From: a virus
Virus record (IMG/VR): IMGVR_UViG_3300031951_001004
Location: 1 to 27,287 of that record
Length of the DNA stretch: 27,287 bases
Direction: 5' to 3' (one strand)
Positions 2,941 to 25,699 of this stretch are shown here, in pieces. Numbering within the stretch: position 1 is the first letter of the stretch; every line of letters begins with the position of its first letter. The position numbers were made by a program, and so were the translations under genes. The notes under the pieces were generated by a model, which saw nothing but the letters and a program-made list of their open reading frames with translations, was not told where the DNA came from and did not search any database.

Positions 2941-5900
2941 ATGGCAAATAAAGTATTCGTTTCTCCTGGTGTCTATACTTCCGAGGTCGATTTAAGCTTT
3001 GTGTCTCAAAGTGTTGGTGTAACAACTTTGGGTATTGTCGGTGAAACTATTAAAGGTCCAGCCTTCGAACCAATTTTCATCACAAACTATGACGAATTTC
3101 AAACTTACTTTGGTGGAACTTCTCCTGAGAAATTTATTAACACTCAAATTCCGAAATATGAGGCGGCTTATATAGCTAAAGCATATTTACAACAATCAAA
3201 TCAATTATTTGTTACAAGAATTCTTGGTTTATCAGGTTATGATGCGGGTCCTTCTTGGACAATAACAACAAAAGCAAATGTTGATCCAACAACTGTTGAT
3301 TTCTATTGTCAAAGTGCAATTACATTAAGTTGTGTAACGACTTGTATTGATTATTTAACAATACCTTTTACAGCAAACTTTACAGGTTGTACTAATAGTA
3401 CTGATAGTATTACATTTACTGATCCGACAAATGAACTTCCTGCTGAGTTATTAAACAAATTATATTTACCTTACGAAAAATTTGATGGTAGTGTTTCGAC
3501 AATTTATGCAAACATGACACAACAAATTTTTGATGTAATGAATGATCCATTCAGTGAGAGTGAATCTGTTTATTATTACGGTCCAATTTCAGGTGCTGAC
3601 TATACAAATTTAGTTACGGCTGGATTTACCGCGGCAACAAATGTATTTGGTGTTGAGGATGTAAATAAAGATTTATGTGATTTAACATCATCATTAAATG
3701 ATCCTTGGTATTATGCAACTTTTGATAATTTGGGTAATGCACAATACACAGGTTTTTCAATGTTTAATGTTATTGACATTACATTAATACCTACGACAAC
3801 AACAACTACAATAACTCCAACAACTACAACTACCACAACTAACCCTTGTGTTACTCCAACCCCATTAATAACTACAACAACTACTACGGCTAAACCAGTG
3901 TTCTGTTATACAGGTTCAGTAACAGGTGTTCTATATGTTTGGGAAGGTATGGCGTTCACTGATTATGATGATTTAGTAATTGCAACATTCCGTTCAAGAG
4001 GTTTAGCAACATATAATTCTGATGATGGGGCGGTTTATGAAGTATCAGGTTTAACTGATGTAAGTATGGCTTGTACAGGTGCATACTCAGGGGTAACTAA
4101 AAATCCGTTTGCTACATTTGGATTGAATGTAACAAATAAAGATGGACAAACCTTATTCTTTGAAACTTCGTTTACTAATTCAGATTCAAAATACTTAACT
4201 AAAGTTTTTGGTGTTTCTAACTTTGCTAAGCCTAAAACTACAGTACCATTATTTGTTGAGGAAATATTCCAATCGTTATTAACTTATGGTTATAGAAAAG
4301 GTTATATTAGAGGTTTAAGTTGTTCATTAACAGCGTTACCAAATGCAAGACAACAGACTGATCCAACATCAATTGCTTGGTATTTGGAAAGATATCAATC
4401 ACCTGAATCACCATGGGTGGTATCTGAATTAAGAGGTAATAAAGTGTTCAACTTATTCAAGTTTGTAACAATTGCTGACGGTAATGATGCTAATTATGAG
4501 GTTAAATTATCTATAGGTAATATATCATTCAATAATGGGACTTTTGATGTATTTGTTAGAGATTATTTTGATAATGATTCTAATCCTGTTGTCCTTGAAA
4601 AATTTACAAATTGTTCAATGAACCCTCAAGAAAACAACTTCATTGCTAAGAAAATTGGAACAATGGATGGAGAATTCCAATTGAACTCTAAATATGTTAT
4701 GTTGGTAATGAATGAAGACGCACCAATAGATGCGTTACCTTGTGGTTTCGAAGGATACCAATTTAGAGAATACGCCGGTGTTAGACCTCCATTCCCTATT
4801 TATAAAACTAAATACGATTTTCCTGGTGAAGTTGTATATAATCCACCTTTTGGATTATCATCAGGTGCTGATGACATTGTTAGAAGTGCTGGTGATAATG
4901 TAAGAAGAACATATCTTGGTATATCTGATACAATCGGATATGACTTAGATTTCTTTGCTTATAAAGGTAAACAACTTCCTTTATCAGTATGTACTGATAC
5001 AAGCGGTGACAATTGGTTGTACAAAACAAGAGGATTCCACATGGACGTAAATGCTAGTGGTATTACAATTGGGAATAGTTTTGCAACAAGTGGAACACCA
5101 GCGTTCTATGTTGGTTCCGCTCCATTTACATCAGACCCAACAAATGAATCAAGTCCATATTATAGATTGTTCTCACGTAAGTTTACTTTATTATGTTCAG
5201 GTGGTTTTGATGGCTGGGACATTTATAGAGAGAGTAGAACTAATGAAGATAAGTTTATTTTAGGTAGAACTGGTTATTTGAAAGGTTCTTGTCCTTCATT
5301 TAGATATCCTACAGCATCAGGTTGGGGAGCATTTAAAACAATTACTGTTGGTAATAATAGTGTTGACTACGCAAATACTGACTATTACGCATACTTGTTA
5401 GGACAACAAACATTCTCTAATCCTGAAGCGGTTAATATTAATGTATTTGTTACTCCAGGTATTGATTATGTAAATCATTCAAATCTTGTTGAATCAGCAA
5501 TTGAAATGGTTGAATTTGATAGAGCTGACTCAATATACATTTGTACAACACCTGACTATAAAATGTTTGTACCAACTACTGGTGATCAGTTAGATTTGAT
5601 TTACCCTCAAGAAGCGGTTGATAATTTAGAAACTGCGGGTATTGATTCTAATTATACCGCAACTTACTATCCTTGGGTATTAACAAGAGATACAGTTAAT
5701 AATACACAAATTTACATTCCACCAACTGCGGAAGTATGTAAAAACTTAGCATTAACTGATAACATTGCTTTCCCTTGGTTCGCCGCCGCTGGTTATACTC
5801 GTGGTATTGTAAACGCAATCAAAGCGAGAAAGAAATTGACTCAAGAAGATAGAGACACTCTTTACAAAGGAAGAATTAATCCAATTGCAACTTTCTCTGA

Positions 5901-6267
5901 TGTAGGAACAGTAATTTGGGGTAACAAAACTCTACAAATTAAAGAATCCGCTTTAGATAGAATCAATGTACGAAGATTGTTATTACAAGCTCGTAAATTA
6001 ATTTCAGCGGTATCAGTTAGATTATTGTTTGAACAAAATGACGATAAAGTTAGACAAGACTTCTTAAACGCTGTTAATCCTATCTTAGACGCAATAAGAA
6101 GAGATAGAGGTTTATACGATTTCCGTGTAACAGTTTCTTCAGATCCTGCCGATATAGATAGAAATCAATTAACAGGTAGTATCTATATCAAACCTACAAA
6201 GGCTTTAGAATTTATAGATATTACATTCTACATCACCCCAACAGGTGCATCGTTTGAGAATATTTAA
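2941..6267 (+). CDS. 18: Tail sheath protein, enlarged (T4 gp18 family)
   Basis: This is the contractile sheath subunit that surrounds the tail tube and shortens on infection. The N-terminus is typical (FVSPGVYTSEVDLSFV, then GIVGETIKGPAFEP). The last 80 residues match the C-terminal sheath domain: FLNAVNPILDAIRRDRGLYD, then the LTGSIYIKPTKALEFIDI strand that is swapped between subunits. At 1108 residues it is far larger than T4 gp18 (659). The excess lies mainly between about residues 115 and 450: a Cys-containing beta-like stretch, a Thr-rich linker (285-316), then a small domain beginning FCYTGSVTGVLYVWEGMAF. Such insertions normally project from the sheath surface. The gene has its own upstream TATTTAT element and ends at a strong hairpin terminator, so it is likely a separate, abundant transcript. 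Confidence 0.95.
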   Translation: MANKVFVSPGVYTSEVDLSFVSQSVGVTTLGIVGETIKGPAFEPIFITNYDEFQTYFGGTSPEKFINTQIPKYEAAYIAKAYLQQSNQLFVTRILGLSGYDAGPSWTITTKANVDPTTVDFYCQSAITLSCVTTCIDYLTIPFTANFTGCTNSTDSITFTDPTNELPAELLNKLYLPYEKFDGSVSTIYANMTQQIFDVMNDPFSESESVYYYGPISGADYTNLVTAGFTAATNVFGVEDVNKDLCDLTSSLNDPWYYATFDNLGNAQYTGFSMFNVIDITLIPTTTTTTITPTTTTTTTNPCVTPTPLITTTTTTAKPVFCYTGSVTGVLYVWEGMAFTDYDDLVIATFRSRGLATYNSDDGAVYEVSGLTDVSMACTGAYSGVTKNPFATFGLNVTNKDGQTLFFETSFTNSDSKYLTKVFGVSNFAKPKTTVPLFVEEIFQSLLTYGYRKGYIRGLSCSLTALPNARQQTDPTSIAWYLERYQSPESPWVVSELRGNKVFNLFKFVTIADGNDANYEVKLSIGNISFNNGTFDVFVRDYFDNDSNPVVLEKFTNCSMNPQENNFIAKKIGTMDGEFQLNSKYVMLVMNEDAPIDALPCGFEGYQFREYAGVRPPFPIYKTKYDFPGEVVYNPPFGLSSGADDIVRSAGDNVRRTYLGISDTIGYDLDFFAYKGKQLPLSVCTDTSGDNWLYKTRGFHMDVNASGITIGNSFATSGTPAFYVGSAPFTSDPTNESSPYYRLFSRKFTLLCSGGFDGWDIYRESRTNEDKFILGRTGYLKGSCPSFRYPTASGWGAFKTITVGNNSVDYANTDYYAYLLGQQTFSNPEAVNINVFVTPGIDYVNHSNLVESAIEMVEFDRADSIYICTTPDYKMFVPTTGDQLDLIYPQEAVDNLETAGIDSNYTATYYPWVLTRDTVNNTQIYIPPTAEVCKNLALTDNIAFPWFAAAGYTRGIVNAIKARKKLTQEDRDTLYKGRINPIATFSDVGTVIWGNKTLQIKESALDRINVRRLLLQARKLISAVSVRLLFEQNDDKVRQDFLNAVNPILDAIRRDRGLYDFRVTVSSDPADIDRNQLTGSIYIKPTKALEFIDITFYITPTGASFENI
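3793..3888 (+). repeat. Thr-rich low-complexity tract inside the sheath gene
   Basis: Runs of ACA/ACT/ACC/ACG codons encode two Thr blocks, broken by a short NPCVTPTPLI segment, at residues 285-316 of the sheath. It resembles a flexible linker or O-glycosylated stalk and separates the sheath core from an inserted domain. Confidence 0.85.
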
Positions 6268-6325: not shown

Positions 6326-6333
6326 TATTTATA
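6326..6333 (+). promoter_or_regulatory. TATTTATA element upstream of the HAD-like gene
   Basis: TATTTATA lies just after the sheath terminator. Its first seven bases end 4 bases before the ATG at 6337, the same gap as at 1106/1111. It is a candidate late promoter giving a near-leaderless RNA. Confidence 0.4.
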
Positions 6334-6336
6334 GAC

Positions 6337-7221
6337 ATGAGAAATACTATTATCAAAATATTAAGAGAATTCGAGGAAAGAGAAATTCCTATGAAATATT
6401 ATGCGTTCGATTGGGATGATAATCTTATGTATATGCCAACTAAAATTTATTTAATGTCTGAAGATGGTAATGAAGTTGGAATGGGTACTGAAGATTTTGC
6501 GACATACAGAACAAAAATTGGTAAAGAACCTTTTGAATATGAAGGTGAAATAATTGAAAATTTTGCCCCCGAACCATTCAGAGATTTCAAAGTAAGTGGA
6601 GATAAGAAATTTTTAAGAGATGTAATGACAGCGGAATTAGCTGAAGACGCTGCTTGGACGGATTTTGTTGAGGCAGTTAATAATGGTTCATTATTCTCAA
6701 TAATTACCGCAAGAGGACATAGACCGACAACTTTAATGTTAGGCGTAAAAAAATTAATAGAATCAGAAAGAGGTGGTATTGATTCAGATATGTTGTATGA
6801 CTCATTAGTTAAAATGAGAGAAAATGCTGGTGAAACTCCTGAAGATAAAGAAACTGAAATTATGAAATATCTACAATTATGTAGATTCTATCCTGTAACC
6901 TATGGTGAGGGTTCCGCTCAAAATCCTGAAGAGGCTAAGATTGTTGCTATGAATAAGTTTAAAAATTACGTTCAATCACAAGCAGAAAAATTAAATATAA
7001 GACTTGCTAATAAAATGGAAAATGAAGTTAATAACAAATTTGTCCCAATGATTGGTTTTTCTGATGACGATATTAGAAACGTGAAAGCAATGAGTAAGGG
7101 AGTTAAGGACATTAAAATCTTTTCAACTCATGGAGGTAAGAAAAAAGAATATAGACCAGAAGAAGATGAATTGCAACTAGAAACTAGAATAAAAAATTTA
7201 TTATATAAATTATATTTATAA
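6337..7221 (+). CDS. HAD-superfamily phosphatase-like protein of the tail block
   Basis: This 294-residue protein has HAD-fold signatures: the nucleophile motif YYAFDWDDNL (D25 and D27), motif II SIITARGH with T124, a possible motif III Lys at 201 (KIVAMNKF), and the acidic motif IV GFSDDDIRNVKAM (242-245). All four catalytic elements appear intact, so a Mg-dependent phosphohydrolase, perhaps on nucleotides or nucleic-acid ends, is likely; the substrate cannot be told. The first 18 residues (MRNTIIKILREFEEREIP) form an amphipathic helix before the catalytic strand. Starting at Met19 would remove it, but the ATG at 6337 sits right behind the TATTTATA element, which favours the longer form. It lies between sheath and tube, so late expression and a virion-related role are inferred. 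Confidence 0.75.
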   Translation: MRNTIIKILREFEEREIPMKYYAFDWDDNLMYMPTKIYLMSEDGNEVGMGTEDFATYRTKIGKEPFEYEGEIIENFAPEPFRDFKVSGDKKFLRDVMTAELAEDAAWTDFVEAVNNGSLFSIITARGHRPTTLMLGVKKLIESERGGIDSDMLYDSLVKMRENAGETPEDKETEIMKYLQLCRFYPVTYGEGSAQNPEEAKIVAMNKFKNYVQSQAEKLNIRLANKMENEVNNKFVPMIGFSDDDIRNVKAMSKGVKDIKIFSTHGGKKKEYRPEEDELQLETRIKNLLYKLYL

Positions 7222-7333: not shown

Positions 7334-7822
7334 ATGGCTGATTTATTAATGAAAATGCCGATTCCTTATGAACCAAAAAGAGCGAATCGATTTATTTTAA
7401 GATTTCCATCATCATTAGGAATAAACGAATGGTATGTTGAAAGTACAAGTAGACCCTCAATAACAATAAATCCTGTTGAGATTCCATTCTTAAATACATC
7501 AACATATGTTGCAGGACGTTTTACTTGGGGAACTATTGATGTTTCTTTCAGAGACCCTATCGGACCTTCAGCATCTCAAGCACTTATGGAATGGGTTCGT
7601 TTACATGCTGAATCTGTAACAGGTAGGATGGGTTACGCTGCTGGATATAAGAAAAACGTAGATTTAGAGATGTTAGATCCGACTGGTGTTGTTGTTGAAA
7701 AATGGATTATGGAAGGATGTTTTCTAACCAATGTATCCTTCAATAGTGTTGCTTACAACTCTGATGCAATTATGACTATCAAAGGTACATTACGTCCAGA
7801 TCGTTGTATTCTTGTTTATTAA
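7334..7822 (+). CDS. 19: Tail tube protein (T4 gp19 family)
   Basis: At 162 residues it matches the length of T4 gp19 (163). The pattern is that of myophage tube subunits: an N-terminal RANRFILRFPSSLG strand, then WYVESTSRPSI, a FTWGTIDVSFRDPIGPSASQ loop-strand, and the C-terminal strands WIMEGCFLTNVSFNSVAY and IMTIKGTLRPDRCIL. It polymerises into the inner tube through which DNA passes and around which the sheath contracts. It has its own upstream TATTTATA element. In T4 the tube directly follows the sheath; here a HAD-like gene lies between them. Confidence 0.93.
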   Translation: MADLLMKMPIPYEPKRANRFILRFPSSLGINEWYVESTSRPSITINPVEIPFLNTSTYVAGRFTWGTIDVSFRDPIGPSASQALMEWVRLHAESVTGRMGYAAGYKKNVDLEMLDPTGVVVEKWIMEGCFLTNVSFNSVAYNSDAIMTIKGTLRPDRCILVY

Positions 7823-7854: not shown

Positions 7855-7888
7855 CCATATATTTATATGTAAAAATATAGATATATGG
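7855..7888 (+). promoter_or_regulatory. Hairpin covering the homing endonuclease start codon, with an internal TATTTATA element
   Basis: CCATATAT (7855-7862) pairs with ATATATGG (7881-7888), and the right arm contains the ATG at 7885-7887. TATTTATA (7860-7867) starts inside the left arm. RNA read through from upstream could fold and hide the start, while RNA initiated just downstream of the element would lack the left arm. The arms are AT-rich, so stability is moderate. Confidence 0.4.
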
Positions 7889-9477
7889 ATTTTCAATTTT
7901 TTATAACTAACAATAGTTCTGGATTTAAAACAAAAGAAAAATGGTTATCCTATAACCATCCTGAATTGTATAATAAAATTATTGAATATTCATCTAAAAT
8001 TAACTTGGAACTTTCTTTTAAAGAAAAGATTTGGTTCTATTATAATAATTTAAAAGAAAGACCAAAATGTGTTTCTTGTGGGGGTGATATAAAGTTTAGA
8101 GAAAGGTTTGATAAACCATATGGTGAATTTTGTTCTTTAACTTGTATTAACACAAATAAAGAAGAAATGGTTAAAAGACAAAGTAAAACATTAAAACAAA
8201 AATATGGTGTTGATTTTTTTCCTCAACATGATGATTTTATTAAAAAACAACGAAAGACAAAACTAGAAAAATATGGGGATGAAAATTTTAATAATCCTCA
8301 AAAAAATAAGGAAACTAAATTACTAAAATATGGTAATCCTGTATTTAACAATTTTGAAAAATATAAAGATACTTGTATCTTAAAATATGGGACGGACAAC
8401 TATAGTAAATCAAACAACTACTCAAAAAAAATAAAAGAAAAATTCAAACATCTTTACCCTGAATTGGAATTTAAAAAGATTGAAAAAGAATTTGTTGAGA
8501 TAAAGTGTTGTGATTGTGGAGAGTCTACTGATATATCCAAACAACTATTATATGAGAGATATAAACGTAATTATGTTATATGTACAAAATGTAACCCAAT
8601 AGGACATAAAAGTAGAAGTGGACATGAAAAAGAGATATGTGAATTTCTAGCAGAAAATAATATTGAGTTTGTAACTAACAAAAAATTTAATAATAGTAAA
8701 ACAGAAATTGATATTTTTATACCTGACTTCAATTTAGGAATCGAAGTTAATGGTGTGTATTGGCACAATGAGTTATTTAAAAATTCAAATTATCATCTTG
8801 ATAAGACATTAAGGTCAGAAAAAGAAAATATAACTTTGATTCATGTTTTTGAGGATGAATGGATATATAAAAAAGATATTGTTAAATCTATTATAAAAAA
8901 TAGATTAAAACTAAATGGTAAAACAATATATGGTAGAAAGTGTGAAATTAGAGAATTAGATACAAAAACTACACAAGATTTTTTAAACCAAAACCATATA
9001 CAGGGTAATGTAAATTCTAAATACAGAATAGGATTATTTTATGAAAATCAATTAGTTTCAGTTATGACATTTGGAAATGGTAGAATAATGATGGGTGGTA
9101 AAAGTAATGAGTTTGAATTAACCAGATTTTGTAATTTGATAAATTATAATATTATTGGATCAGCCTCTAAATTACTTAATTTTTTTATTAAAAAATATGT
9201 ACCACAAAAGATTGTATCATATTCTGACGTTAGATTATTTAATGGGGAATTATATAAAAAATTAAATTTTAATAAAATACATCAATCCAAACCGAATTAC
9301 TGGTATGTTATTGATGACATCAGACATAACAGATTTAATTTTAGAAAATCCATATTAGTTAAACATGGATTTGATAAGAATAAAACAGAAAAGGAAATAA
9401 TGTTTGAAAGAAAAATATATCGAATATATGATTGTGGTAATATTAGATGGGAATTAACACCAAGTTATGGATTATAG
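7885..9477 (+). CDS. Free-standing homing endonuclease, Vsr/PD-(D/E)XK-like
   Basis: This 530-residue protein has a layout familiar from phage homing nucleases. A Cys4 zinc-knuckle-like site lies at C62, C65, C83 and C87. Four KYG-centred repeats (residues 106-108, 129-131, 148-150, 167-169) are probable DNA-binding units. A second Cys cluster lies at C208/C211 and C233/C236. A nuclease core follows, EIDIFIPDFNLGIEVNGVYW, with candidate catalytic D276, E287 and H294, then LIHVFEDEW. The C-terminal 180 residues (SVMTFGNGR, ELTRFC, GSASKLLNFF, IVSYSDVR, PNYWYV) look like a GNAT-related accessory domain common to such proteins. It would cut an allele lacking the gene, with repair copying it in. 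It sits between tail tube and gp26-type genes and does not interrupt either. Confidence 0.88.
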   Translation: MDFQFFITNNSSGFKTKEKWLSYNHPELYNKIIEYSSKINLELSFKEKIWFYYNNLKERPKCVSCGGDIKFRERFDKPYGEFCSLTCINTNKEEMVKRQSKTLKQKYGVDFFPQHDDFIKKQRKTKLEKYGDENFNNPQKNKETKLLKYGNPVFNNFEKYKDTCILKYGTDNYSKSNNYSKKIKEKFKHLYPELEFKKIEKEFVEIKCCDCGESTDISKQLLYERYKRNYVICTKCNPIGHKSRSGHEKEICEFLAENNIEFVTNKKFNNSKTEIDIFIPDFNLGIEVNGVYWHNELFKNSNYHLDKTLRSEKENITLIHVFEDEWIYKKDIVKSIIKNRLKLNGKTIYGRKCEIRELDTKTTQDFLNQNHIQGNVNSKYRIGLFYENQLVSVMTFGNGRIMMGGKSNEFELTRFCNLINYNIIGSASKLLNFFIKKYVPQKIVSYSDVRLFNGELYKKLNFNKIHQSKPNYWYVIDDIRHNRFNFRKSILVKHGFDKNKTEKEIMFERKIYRIYDCGNIRWELTPSYGL

Positions 9478-15300: not shown

Positions 15301-17436
15301 ATACCAAAAGCGGGTACTGGTGATACCTTTGGATTTGAGGTAAACTGTAGAAATGATATTAAAGGTGGAAATAATAACATAACCGACAATTCCAAAGCTC
15401 AGATATATTCAGTTTATGCAATGGCTTGTAGGAGAGTTAAAATTAAAGAAATTAAAGTTACATTACCACAAGTTGAAGTTGAAAATGAAGTTAAAACCAA
15501 TCAAACTGATATTGCCCCAAAAGAACAAAAGGTAGTTGTAAAATCAACAGTAATACCACCTAGATTACAACCAACTATTAGTGTTACTAAAAAATTGAAA
15601 GATGGTATTAGTAAAAAAATATTAAGAAATCTATTTTCCGAATGTGATTACTTTGATGTAATACAGAAAGAAAATCCGATGATATATCAAACAATTAAGG
15701 AAAAGATTAAATACTTCAACCCAGCGTTCCACTCAATGACACCTGAAGGATTGAATGCTCGTTTAACGTTCTTAAATCAATGTGTTAGACCTGGTGAAAC
15801 AATTCCTGTAATAGGTGCTGATGGTAGACCGAAATATAATGATGCAGTTAATACATCATTTGGTGCTCCTCCCATTCTTATTTTAAGGGTAGGTGACTTT
15901 TATAATACAAAGATTGTTCCTACAAGTTTGGGTTTTACATATGAAAGTAATTTATTGGATATTAATCCTGAAGGTATTGGTATTCAGCCAATGATTGTAA
16001 AAGTATCTATGGGATTCAATATGATTGGAGGACATGGTTTATCCAAACCTGTTGAACAATTGCAGAACGCATTATCATTTAATTATTATGCAAATACTGA
16101 AATATATGATGAAAGGGCGACGCCTACTGATGATTCGTATAAGAAGATAGATAAAGAATTAGAACAAGTTATATTAGCTGGTGAAAAACCTGCAACTCTT
16201 AATAATGTTACTAATAATCCTACAAATGATGGTGGTGATACTATTGGTGAAATTCAGACAAATATACCAATTCCTAGTGGACAAACAGGTGTTACCTCAT
16301 ACCAAAAAGTTATGGATAAATTCTTTGATGAAACCGTAACATACTTCAACACTGTGGTTAACCAAATGGAAAAAATCACATTGACGTATAATATGGGTAT
16401 CATGCAATTAGTGAATGATAAAAGGAAAAATACTAATGGAACCATTTATTTAAGTGGAGCTAGTGTAACACCAAATCCTGAAGTAAAAATAATATGGGGA
16501 CAACCTGATGGTGATAATACAAGATTAACTAAACTATTTACTGATGTAATAAAAGATATTGAAACAAATCAAAATCCATTACTCAATGGCGGATTATTAA
16601 AAAATAATTTACAAAATGGATATTTTGGTGCTGAACCCGAAATCAAAGAATTTAAGCTTAATTTAATTAACTATATTAAAAAATTAAGTTCAGACTTTTC
16701 TAATGGTATTGTTACAACTTATACTGATTTAGTAAATTTTGAAGCTAACTATGTTCAGTATTTTAGAAAGATTAATTTAATTGAAACAAAAACCGATGGT
16801 AAAATTTTAGAAAGTAATGTTCCAAGAGTTTATAATATATCAGGAACCAGTGAAGTTAGTAACTCAAGTAAACCACCAGAAGGACAAGAACCAACAAACA
16901 GAGGTGTACCACAAAATACATTTGAGGAATTAGATTTTGATTATACAGATGTGATTCAATCACTCAAAGAGTATAACAAACTTTTGGATTCAAGTGGTAT
17001 AACTACAAGTAATGAATATCAAGATGGTGAGTTTAGACTGGCTGATACTGAAGCTAATTTTGATCTTGAGAATAAACTTTTCTTCATGGTTATTTCTAGA
17101 ATTTTGGATAATAAAAATAAAAGACAAGAATTTGTTTCCGCTTTAACTAAAGGACCTTCAGTAAGTAAAAACAACTTTAAAAATAAATTAGAAAAGGTTG
17201 TTGAAAAGTTACAAAACAAATATTCAAAAGAATTAAGAAAAGAAGAAAAGTTATTTGAGAACTTTAGAAAAAATAAAGAGTTCAAAACATTTGTTAATGA
17301 ACCATTACAAAAATTATTTCCTAAAGGTAAAACAAGAAAATTTGAATACTCAACAGTACCGGGAACTAATGATGTTGCACAGAAGGCTCAAATATTAGCA
17401 CTATACACAAAAAAAACAAATATATTAGAATTCTAA
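12316..17436 (+). CDS. Large baseplate protein with tube-like region and OmpA-like domain, 1706 residues
   Basis: No single T4 gene matches its length. The N-terminal 550 residues are Pro/Gly/Asn/Ser-rich. At about 605-720 lies a tube-initiator-like stretch (GGRVMWFPPYDLTFSD, FLGRPEPIYTYNNTTRSGSI, SWKIIVDHPSVMN). At about 910-1010 lies an OmpA-C-like domain with MIGSASALG and the signature YNKNLSLRRIDSVKKFF; the usual Asp of the GHTD box is not present. At about 1135-1262 lies a second beta-rich region, with ILRVGDFYNTKIVPTSLGFT and SMGFNMIGGHGLSKPVEQLQ. The C-terminus is charged and coiled-coil-like. Its place after the tape measure and before gp53 suggests the role of T4 gp48/gp54 (tube initiation on the hub), enlarged with a possible cell-wall-binding module. 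That function is inferred. Confidence 0.65.
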   Translation: MSDSSLSFISTASFRNSLMSRNLAPYTLQGVYSPPVSNTNYPTVIGDLNVIDSPNNLIGDSPFPDRLYPLNEYGPEGGYSNTVINNKYPLRPNKGEYDPNDTELDLVNEFYIDAAYIENRYGPIGGYMSMVVIDSLENKNKLYTPYWNPPTFIPSSYSPYQILLSNDPTGSSGLLSQDSFIVKLGAQTLKNLLQDRVDVENAQINGSAGSLDTFSNPLNSTLLVSGRLDTTNKNYKITIPEQGLGTSQSLSSRLSDNYFPASPIPGDYFIESPFNGGSSAQITSGVNALNQLTGGALGGILNVLRNPSQIFLANTGNGQRSILFANIDYNRYQPPYDRNLGAAVAVGQFALNALDVTTGGFYVGSRNADPSTITSPPNQIPVDAFGRQIQTPVYGPSELGILFEGNENKINFGLAGKSFTDGGGIDGQFVWTSPKYKGNAGYKATPGGGVGSLDTEFNQISSQYTSNESTSITFKPSSILDATQRLIESADNVAGITKLKHVGNAINQVSKVFNDGYKEMTKGSRVLSYQDNTNGGEAGIEYCRVFTKDTPYYTYNDLQKTDGITTSGRRFVNSVFDNTYNLNIAPLRNPGSTNILPNEKGQLVAKKYMFSLENLAWRTSSRPGLTYDDLPVCERGPNGGRVMWFPPYDLTFSDTSTPNFQQTNFLGRPEPIYTYNNTTRSGSISWKIIVDHPSVMNTIIEKQLKGQQKERIDSIIDSFFAGCVKYDVYELAKKFNMLKPSDIYEYQEILNNPRLTREELAGVNFEIQKTVTIPAPIGGSTNGQGGDSNISNVDKKTYQDDPEQKNFEDRYKELAFYFHDDIPGPQTGTVSNQPYSQTFDSYKSLMTTYENTSNSLFGDTSPFCKKTGTVKVTENGRTQVDTGKSHQQYCNEAKNVKQFFDTIVESNYNVISKNEKNFIVDAYNIIKKGGTVTIEMIGSASALGNQDYNKNLSLRRIDSVKKFFKETTIGDANLGNEIDKKFFIKSAQGDGEDISIPKAGTGDTFGFEVNCRNDIKGGNNNITDNSKAQIYSVYAMACRRVKIKEIKVTLPQVEVENEVKTNQTDIAPKEQKVVVKSTVIPPRLQPTISVTKKLKDGISKKILRNLFSECDYFDVIQKENPMIYQTIKEKIKYFNPAFHSMTPEGLNARLTFLNQCVRPGETIPVIGADGRPKYNDAVNTSFGAPPILILRVGDFYNTKIVPTSLGFTYESNLLDINPEGIGIQPMIVKVSMGFNMIGGHGLSKPVEQLQNALSFNYYANTEIYDERATPTDDSYKKIDKELEQVILAGEKPATLNNVTNNPTNDGGDTIGEIQTNIPIPSGQTGVTSYQKVMDKFFDETVTYFNTVVNQMEKITLTYNMGIMQLVNDKRKNTNGTIYLSGASVTPNPEVKIIWGQPDGDNTRLTKLFTDVIKDIETNQNPLLNGGLLKNNLQNGYFGAEPEIKEFKLNLINYIKKLSSDFSNGIVTTYTDLVNFEANYVQYFRKINLIETKTDGKILESNVPRVYNISGTSEVSNSSKPPEGQEPTNRGVPQNTFEELDFDYTDVIQSLKEYNKLLDSSGITTSNEYQDGEFRLADTEANFDLENKLFFMVISRILDNKNKRQEFVSALTKGPSVSKNNFKNKLEKVVEKLQNKYSKELRKEEKLFENFRKNKEFKTFVNEPLQKLFPKGKTRKFEYSTVPGTNDVAQKAQILALYTKKTNILEF

Positions 17437-25012: not shown

Positions 25013-25699
25013 ATGAGAGTTGATTTAAAAATTATTGAAGAAATCAAAAGACATAATCAGATTACTAGATATATCAATGAACAGGAATTACCACCTCCTC
25101 CACCACCAGGTGATGCAGGGGAATTACCTCCTCCACCTCCAGGTGACGCAGGTGCTCCACCCCCTCCTCCTGCACCTGGTGTAGGTGCTCCACCACCAGC
25201 CGCTCCACCACAACCTGTTGATGTTGCTGCGGATCCTGATGTGGAAAAAATTGGGGATGAAAAGGAAAAGGAAAACAAAGAAGAAATTAAAGTAACTGAT
25301 TTAGTTAAAAGTCAAAAATCTGTTGAAGATAAACAAGAAGAATATTTTGAAACATTATTCAACCACCTCAACGATTTGGAACAAAAACTTGGGACTATGG
25401 ATGACATAATTAACAAGTTAAATACACTAGAGACTAAGATAGAAAAATATAGAACAAAAAGTCCTGAAGAAAAAATGGAATTAAGAACATTGGATTCAGG
25501 ACCATTCAATCAGAAATTGAGTCAATTCTTTGAAGATAAAGAAGAAGACTTTGAAAAATCTGGAAAAGAACAATATATTATAACTCCTGACGATGTTGAA
25601 GGTTACTCACCAAATGAAATCAAAAGAAGTTTTAGAGACTTCGGAGATACGGAAATGACACCTGAAAACGACATGAGCGGATTCAAGAAAATATATTAG
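25013..25699 (+). CDS. Proline-rich coiled-coil protein, possible virion or assembly protein
   Basis: This 228-residue protein of unknown family has three parts. Residues 1-24 form an amphipathic, charged helix (VDLKIIEEIKRHNQITRYIN). Residues 25-68 are a Pro/Gly/Ala tract with two PPPPP(P)GDAG repeats and later PPPP units. Residues 75-165 are strongly charged with heptad-like stretches (YFETLFNHLNDLEQKLG, MDDIINKLNTLETKIEKY), consistent with a coiled coil. The tail is acidic (ITPDDVEGYSPNEIKRSF). It has no signal peptide or membrane segment. The layout of anchoring helix, stiff linker and oligomerising rod suits a structural or scaffold-like role; that is inference from shape and late-operon position. 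The antisense reading of the Pro tract as a Gly-rich ORF is a shadow. Confidence 0.75.
   Translation: MRVDLKIIEEIKRHNQITRYINEQELPPPPPPGDAGELPPPPPGDAGAPPPPPAPGVGAPPPAAPPQPVDVAADPDVEKIGDEKEKENKEEIKVTDLVKSQKSVEDKQEEYFETLFNHLNDLEQKLGTMDDIINKLNTLETKIEKYRTKSPEEKMELRTLDSGPFNQKLSQFFEDKEEDFEKSGKEQYIITPDDVEGYSPNEIKRSFRDFGDTEMTPENDMSGFKKIY
25085..25216 (+). repeat. Proline-coding tandem repeat tract
   Basis: Two imperfect units encode ELPPPPPPGDAG (25085-25120) and ELPPPPPGDAG (25121-25153), followed by degenerate APPPPPAPGVG-type units. CCA/CCT codons and GGTGAYGCAGG make this tract clearly richer in G and C than its surroundings. Confidence 0.8.

Follow-up and report, generated by a model that had tools for sequence, protein, structure and literature searches.

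Among described systems, those closest to the locus reported here include the head-targeting propeptides of tailed phages. The internal proteins of T4 are loaded by means of such propeptides and leave the head with the DNA on ejection; one of them, IPI, inhibits a restriction system (PMC9391042, accessible portion). Mutagenesis of T4 IPIII has assigned residues 4 and 7 to targeting and residues 8 and 10 to processing, Asp at position 10 blocks trimming while still allowing entry, and the motif of the T4 gp21 protease is given as L/I-x-E (PMC9026906, accessible portion). In SPN3US, the diverged paralogs gp53 and gp54 have identical N-termini, according to the available part of PMC5694885.

The DNA analysed here, hereafter the window, is a stretch of 27,287 nucleotides from a large Bacteroidetes-type phage (positions 1 to 27,287 of IMG/VR virus record IMGVR_UViG_3300031951_001004). 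The most economical account of the N-terminus of its HAD-type phosphatase, and one that we regard as fairly probable, is that of a removable head-targeting propeptide by which the enzyme would be loaded into the virion. The features of the gene are as follows.

6337–7221, + strand: gene for a HAD-fold phosphatase of 294 aa with an N-terminal tag (open reading frame, alignment, AF2 model, structure match)
6326–6333, + strand: late-type box TATTTATA, 3 nt before the ATG of the HAD gene (position; peaks in relatives)
6337–6369, + strand: proposed head-targeting propeptide M1-E11 (MRNTIIKILRE), E11 being the proposed P1 residue (E11 conservation; similar peptides elsewhere)
6370–6390, + strand: linker F12-P18 between tag and fold (alignment and model)
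6409–6417, + strand: HAD motif I, D25-W26-D27 (invariant in 26 of 26)
6706–6714, + strand: HAD motif II, T124-A125-R126 (invariant in 26 of 26)
7063–7071, + strand: HAD motif IV, D243-D244-D245 (invariant in 26 of 26)

The earlier note on this DNA had read the HAD catalytic elements as intact, and this holds for three motifs: the DxD of motif I, the Thr of motif II and the acidic pair of motif IV that characterize the superfamily are all present across 26 aligned relatives, and two lysines that are both invariant in the same alignment, K201 and K254, are candidates for the Lys of motif III. A Rossmann-like HAD fold is predicted for the protein by an AF2 model built from the alignment of relatives (mean pLDDT 83.5), the best structural match of which in VIA-align is the T4 Pnkp phosphatase (131 aligned residues at Z 10.5), restricted to its phosphatase domain at chain residues 156-299, followed by HAD-type phosphatases at Z 8.6 and below. 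Searches by other routes were negative: no HAD model matched the protein or its relatives in Pfam, PHROGs and NCBIfam scans, a PDB profile search gave five matches (E 0.037-0.73) with no HAD phosphatase among them, Foldseek against the PDB returned nothing for the model at E ≤ 0.001, and hhalign against PseT detected no sequence similarity (probability 0.2%). The match to T4 Pnkp, and the company of other phosphoesterases described below, permit a guess that the substrate is nucleotides or nucleic-acid ends.

The tail sheath gene at 2941-6267 (Phage_sheath_1C, E 1.5e-9) lies upstream of the HAD gene and the tail tube gene at 7334-7822 (phrog_4542, E 3.1e-28) downstream, as had been proposed from the sequence, and in counts that take in distant relatives the sheath adjoins the gene in 63 of 80 loci and the tube lies close by downstream in 69 of the 77 able to show it. 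This placement would suit a helix through which the enzyme attaches to the sheath or tube of the tail, but distant orthologs retain the tag with no tail neighbours detected, and similar tags occur on many other proteins, so that docking on the tail is very improbable. When the available flanks were searched by tblastn using proteins of the window as queries, a method that diverged tail genes could escape, there was no sheath or tube gene beside HAD in LR745206, LR756501, LR756502, LR756504, G007, G008 or G009. The placement is typical of the window's clade and not general, it says little about function, and the earlier argument for targeting from gene position is not supported by these seven distant records. 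The sheath protein itself is 1108 aa long and contains threonine-run stretches (for comparison, the gp18 gene of T4 is recorded with a length of 1980 nt). In the interval from the tube gene to a T4_baseplate gene, the window encodes a 530-aa protein (7885-9477) that matches DUF7487 and, below threshold, shows Mom-like and PvuRts1I-like similarity.

In the window alone, the box TATTTATA occurs at chance level (8 seen, 7.45 expected). In 1192 stretches upstream of ORFs from the window and contigs G001-G009, near-identical contigs being retained, it was found 157 times, 34 of these at 3-5 nt and 63 at 12-15 nt before the start. Because the box piles up at two distances before ORF starts, the description of the element as late-type is reasonable, and the 3-5 nt class hints at leaderless late genes, with the HAD gene among them.

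The aligned part of the model begins at residue 16 or 17 in the top VIA-align rows (at 8 or 11 in a few lower ones), which places the extension outside the HAD fold and bears out the view that an N-terminal stretch precedes the enzyme. Relatives were collected as 524 IMG/VR stretches at tblastn E ≤ 1e-3, and in the best 80 of these an extension bearing [ILV]xE stands ahead of KYYAFDWDDN without exception (79 by script, representing 26 different strings, one with a truncated beginning, and L019, which reads KFYAFDWDDN, by inspection); poor conservation of the helix among relatives, one half of what the earlier note had named as refuting its proposal, was not encountered in this set. Within residues 1-17, E11 alone is at least 90% conserved among the 26 aligned relatives, and the triplets found in the family are LRE, LKE, INE, LNE, ISE, ITE and VTE; the extensions of G007 and G009 read MLKNRKLIEG... 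and MKLKLVEG..., respectively. A column tally over the HAD extensions was discarded as circular, being anchored on the Glu itself and with some rows misanchored. A separate relative of the enzyme, in L403, a Gracilibacteria MAG contig, shares 35% identity, begins with another N-terminus from which [ILV]xE is absent and contains stops inside its frame under table 11.

The extension might instead lie outside the main product, with transcription starting inside it and translation starting at M19 (MKYYAFDWDDN). The box abutting the first ATG at a distance of 3 nt would accord with such a start, as would the M or V that close relatives have at residue 19. However, L060, G007 and G009 have L or E at residue 19, the box spacing of 3-5 nt is shared by 34 ORF starts, a pattern that leaderless genes would produce, and pN/pS across 13 close sequences is 0.24 for codons 2-18 and 0.15 for the following 60 codons. 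Because this value of 0.24 signifies purifying selection, the extension is counted as translated, and a start at M19 is given hardly any credence.

The translated extension contains the proposed propeptide. Its helix is modelled with block-mean pLDDT of 54-58 over residues 2-11, and exceptional amphipathicity is not supported by a comparison with shuffled sequences, 20% of which reach its hydrophobic moment (residues 2-15). As a sequence pattern only, the tag fits an N-terminal propeptide of approximately 10-20 residues with L/I-x-E. Because aromatics are absent from the places of T4 residues 4 and 7, we do not classify it as a T4 capsid-targeting sequence (CTS), though it probably works like one.

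Relatives of the window encode T4-type head machinery. Peptidase_S77 matches exceed the cut-off in G001 (9.9e-24) and G007 (7.9e-25), and both also carry Gp23 (1e-73), with Portal_T4 in G007 (1e-76); S77 was absent from G002, G003, G008 and G009, all of which are fragments, and the window record, itself a 27-kb fragment, yielded no recognisable head gene. G007 also encodes a 484-aa candidate scaffold protein. Among ten long contigs of tagged genes, seven have S77 above the cut-off, and the same seven have a Gp23-type capsid protein. In all nine capsid proteins that were read (two share an N-terminus), residues 58-60 form [IL]xE and the next residue is A, S or T, which is what a gp21-type site would show. 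The P1' residue in the HAD family is instead F, L, I, Y, Q, G or M, and this mismatch to the capsid site is the main doubt on cleavage of the HAD tag. In LR745206, LR756501, LR756502 and LR756504 only sub-threshold S77 matches were seen, in ORFs of 699-811 aa, which are perhaps enlarged prohead proteases, and in one of 181 aa. A bS21 gene is located on the opposite strand inside the portal/protease/capsid cluster of G001 and G007.

HAD orthologs from two other huge phages carry a different N-terminus. Those of LR756501 (...NFELFLNE) and LR756502 (...RFDQFIRE) begin with an [FY]xx[FY][ILV]xE motif, which corresponds to residues 4, 7, 8 and 10 of T4 IPIII as described in the accessible portion of PMC9026906. 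The LR745206 ortholog reads KFNQFLEN, with N in the P1 place, and that of LR756504 has no extension. A second HAD paralog in LR756501 (41865-42584, − strand) has the N-terminus MIKKYEDYSKNE, a partial T4-type motif. With internal Met positions as the control, the T4-type pattern ^M.{1,9}[FY]..[FY][ILVM].E matches 22 of 965 ORF starts vs 8 of 2631 internal Mets in LR745206, 32 of 555 vs 7 of 1756 in the first 400 kb of LR756501, 12 of 195 vs 4 of 679 in 160 kb of LR756504, and 3 of 272 ORFs, IPII and IPIII included, vs 1 of 810 in T4 itself. The motif is not enriched in the window's clade, where 1 of 664 starts and 10 of 3082 internal positions match.

Two further enzyme families, DHH and 2H phosphoesterases, bear either type of tag, as HAD does. 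The DHH tags take the forms MISKYNQFINEE in LR745206, MKKLIIESG or MKKLIKESG in G007 and G008, and MKNLIRKILKEEGQRLLNESG in L322, and in all 34 loci (33 by script, L428 by inspection) [ILV]xE followed by SG or GG stands directly ahead of the domain, in short and long tags alike. The 2H enzymes begin with MKLKKYKQFIKES in LR745206, MELNEQLTKIKTMMGINEN in G007 and MKDLIKKILKEET in L319, and four of the ten 2H loci found with L319 are without a tag. The G007 2H protein (L246:10113-10673, − strand) matches the anti-CBASS family Acb1 in Pfam at 30.5 bits, above the cut-off of 27, and four other members scanned fall under that cut-off, at 19.1-23.1 bits. That the HAD enzyme keeps company with Acb1-like 2H and DHH phosphoesterases hints at early counter-defence or nucleic-acid clean-up as its role. 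The extension of the Acb1-like protein of G007 ends in INEN, and its relative in LR745206 carries an additional RNase_T exonuclease domain.

Four of the DHH genes are interrupted by a single in-frame stop at the same codon of the catalytic motif:

L428:2001-2180, + strand: interrupted DHH gene
L107 (G002), near 16460, + strand: interrupted DHH gene
L273 (G009), − strand: interrupted DHH gene
L327, + strand: interrupted DHH gene

The interrupted motif reads HQD-CTT-stop-CTN-D-G, with TGA as the stop in L428 and G002 and TAG in G009, and intact orthologs read HQDLDG. Because a skip from the first to the second Leu codon would give HQDLDG, programmed bypass, of which T4 gene 60 is an example, is possible, with readthrough or plain inactivation as alternatives. 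L273 also contains, at 1307-1788 (− strand), a GOLLD RNA (RF02032, 294.9 bits) adjoining a tRNA.

A second candidate for the same kind of address within the window is the proline-rich protein that the earlier note had paired with the HAD enzyme.

25013–25699, + strand: proline-rich protein with the second proposed tag (open reading frame and N-termini of relatives)
25013–25081, + strand: second proposed tag, M1-E23 (MRVDLKIIEEIKRHNQITRYINE), with Y[IL]xE then Q conserved

The pairing gains from the relatives of this protein, since Y[IL]xE then Q is present in all 22 distinct N-termini, which derive from 46 of 51 loci, the other five being without a start. Across 91 ortholog families of G001-G009 and the window, each with at least three distinct N-termini, 14 contain [ILV]xE in every distinct N-terminus, though several of these are not tag-like; the most distinct N-termini among the 14 belong to the 25013 family (8) and to HAD (7).

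Similar peptides are also found on unrelated phage proteins. The HAD ortholog of L039 bears M[KR]xLI[KR]KIL[KR]E[EQ] exactly, the peptide form is matched by the orthologs of L039, L040 and L043 (MRNLIRRILREQ) with a near match in L017 (MKSLIKKILKEY), and the window peptide departs from it at three set positions, T4, I6 and F12. A DNA pattern encoding M[KR]xhI[KR][KR]Ih[KR]E[EQ], ATG included and with h standing for codons with middle T, was scanned against IMG/VR and found in at least 120 viral stretches. Among the 80 loci listed, 97 ORFs begin with the tag pattern, and the 93 of these longer than 60 aa form 38 groups without detectable mutual similarity (all-against-all BLAST at E 1e-3, first 25 residues removed). 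On ten long contigs, most of them picked for holding tagged genes, the pattern has 14 matches against 0 for a reversed control, and G007 and G008 carry the peptide on two non-HAD families (MRDLIKKILKEQ; MRDLIKKILREE and MKDLIKKILREE). The DNA pattern is matched by none of the 80 HAD loci, which counts slightly against head targeting. Three stricter patterns all missed the window protein: on G001-G006 and the window, the first gave 6 N-terminal matches where about 1.6 were expected and the second 10 where about 7.4 were expected, and with the third 6 of 9 matches were N-terminal. Many small proteins of G002, G004, G007, G008 and others begin with one of two other recurrent N-terminal classes, MK[IL][IL]ITE[SNQ] and MKKIVRLTESDLxxLVKRIIxEQ. 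A literature search conducted largely outside subscription papers found no account of such tags, either in huge phages or in phages of Bacteroidetes.

The sharing of tags between orthologs was assessed in two ways, both with a loose definition of the tag and both scoring the DHH of G002 and G009 as untagged on account of the interrupted frame, the upstream part of which has [IL]xE before SG. In ortholog pairs between LR records and G001-G009 or the window, with related contigs counted apart and the window's own HAD scored as untagged, 21 of 37 pairs tagged on the LR side are also tagged on the other, vs 72 of 261 for LR-untagged pairs (p 6e-4); 20 of the 37 are HAD pairs, and without HAD the count is 9 of 17 (p 0.049). 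At the level of families, homologs are mostly tagged in 9 of 10 families with a tagged query vs 56 of 142 with an untagged one (p 0.002), in a small test for which only 10 of the 38 groups were testable.

In 1076 non-redundant ORFs, [ILVM]xE[QNASTGI] has a frequency of 0.268 in residues 1-30 vs 0.192 in residues 61-90, where the corresponding controls, which cover this loose motif alone, give 0.200 and 0.197 with D and 0.262 and 0.218 with K; a tighter motif gives 0.070 vs 0.022. The presence of TATTTATA 3-17 nt upstream is commoner for motif-bearing ORFs (odds ratio 2.1, p 6e-4; tight motif 2.7, p 0.002), with an odds ratio of 1.7 (p 0.18) under a third definition of the motif and control values of 1.5 (p 0.065) for K and 0.8 for D.

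The modularity of these tags and their exchange between orthologs would suit any address, and a destination other than the head, be it the membrane, a replication/assembly compartment, the phage RNA polymerase or a chaperone, deserves weighing. The [IL]xE would then belong to a helix-binding motif and not to a protease site, which accords with the bulky P1' residues and with tags that contain more than one candidate Glu; moreover, none of ten tagged proteins scanned in Pfam is a known head or ejected protein. This explanation nevertheless seems unlikely, given that orthologs swap the tag for a T4-type motif, that the [ILV]xE of DHH enzymes is followed by S or G just ahead of the domain in tags of any length, and that a similar site is present at the capsid propeptide. 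The occurrence of this kind of module on unrelated proteins, its [ILV]xE and the T4-type swap on orthologs lend indirect support to the targeting tag first suggested for this gene.

Head targeting is therefore retained as the preferred reading. The HAD phosphatase would be made late, together with the structural proteins, and its address peptide would dock it on the prohead core. Cleavage by the gp21-type protease of the phage would then follow the Glu of the [ILV]xE triplet (E11 in the window), leaving the enzyme inside the head until it exits with the DNA. More speculatively, and as a reading somewhat less likely than not, huge phages of the Bacteroidetes kind may possess a second class of head-entry address, basic-hydrophobic and with [IL]xE, that is interchangeable with the T4 class and preloads dozens of enzymes, including Acb1-like, DHH and HAD proteins, for counter-defence at DNA entry, before phage gene expression. 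If true, proteins could be loaded into phage heads with a new class of tag, the packaged cargo of uncultured huge phages could be read from sequence alone via N-terminal tags, and many 'hypothetical' proteins would become predicted effectors delivered by the virion, with counter-defence enzymes likely among them.

Compared with known systems, G001 and G007 resemble the bS21-encoding freshwater Bacteroidetes phages, in which bS21 likewise lies within the head cluster, and the GC content of the window (29-33% in 5-kb blocks) is close to the 31.0-33.7% of those phages (the cluster position and this range both from the available part of PMC9723584). The available part of that paper makes no mention of targeting tags, and its main text does not use the word phosphatase. 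The 3'-phosphatase domain of T4 PseT, the best fold match of the HAD protein at Z 10.5, shares with it the DxD and an S/T-x-R element (in PseT by inspection), whereas the 294-aa HAD protein is without a kinase domain and without sequence similarity to PseT. The head propeptides of phiKZ and SPN3US, processed by the proteases gp175 and gp245, also have Glu at P1 and occur on head and ejected proteins, though the motif in SPN3US is A-x-E and several of its propeptides exceed 100 residues (PMC5694885, accessible portion). The T4 CTS of IPI, IPII, IPIII and Alt differs from the window tag, a basic-hydrophobic stretch with no aromatic pair, and tags of the window type sit on many, larger proteins, with targeting and cleavage that are putative. 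Like the window tag, the T4 CTS is a short N-terminal propeptide with L/I-x-E found on unrelated proteins, a T4-type protease and capsid protein are encoded in the window's relatives, and the T4-type motif itself is borne by the HAD enzymes of LR756501 and LR756502.
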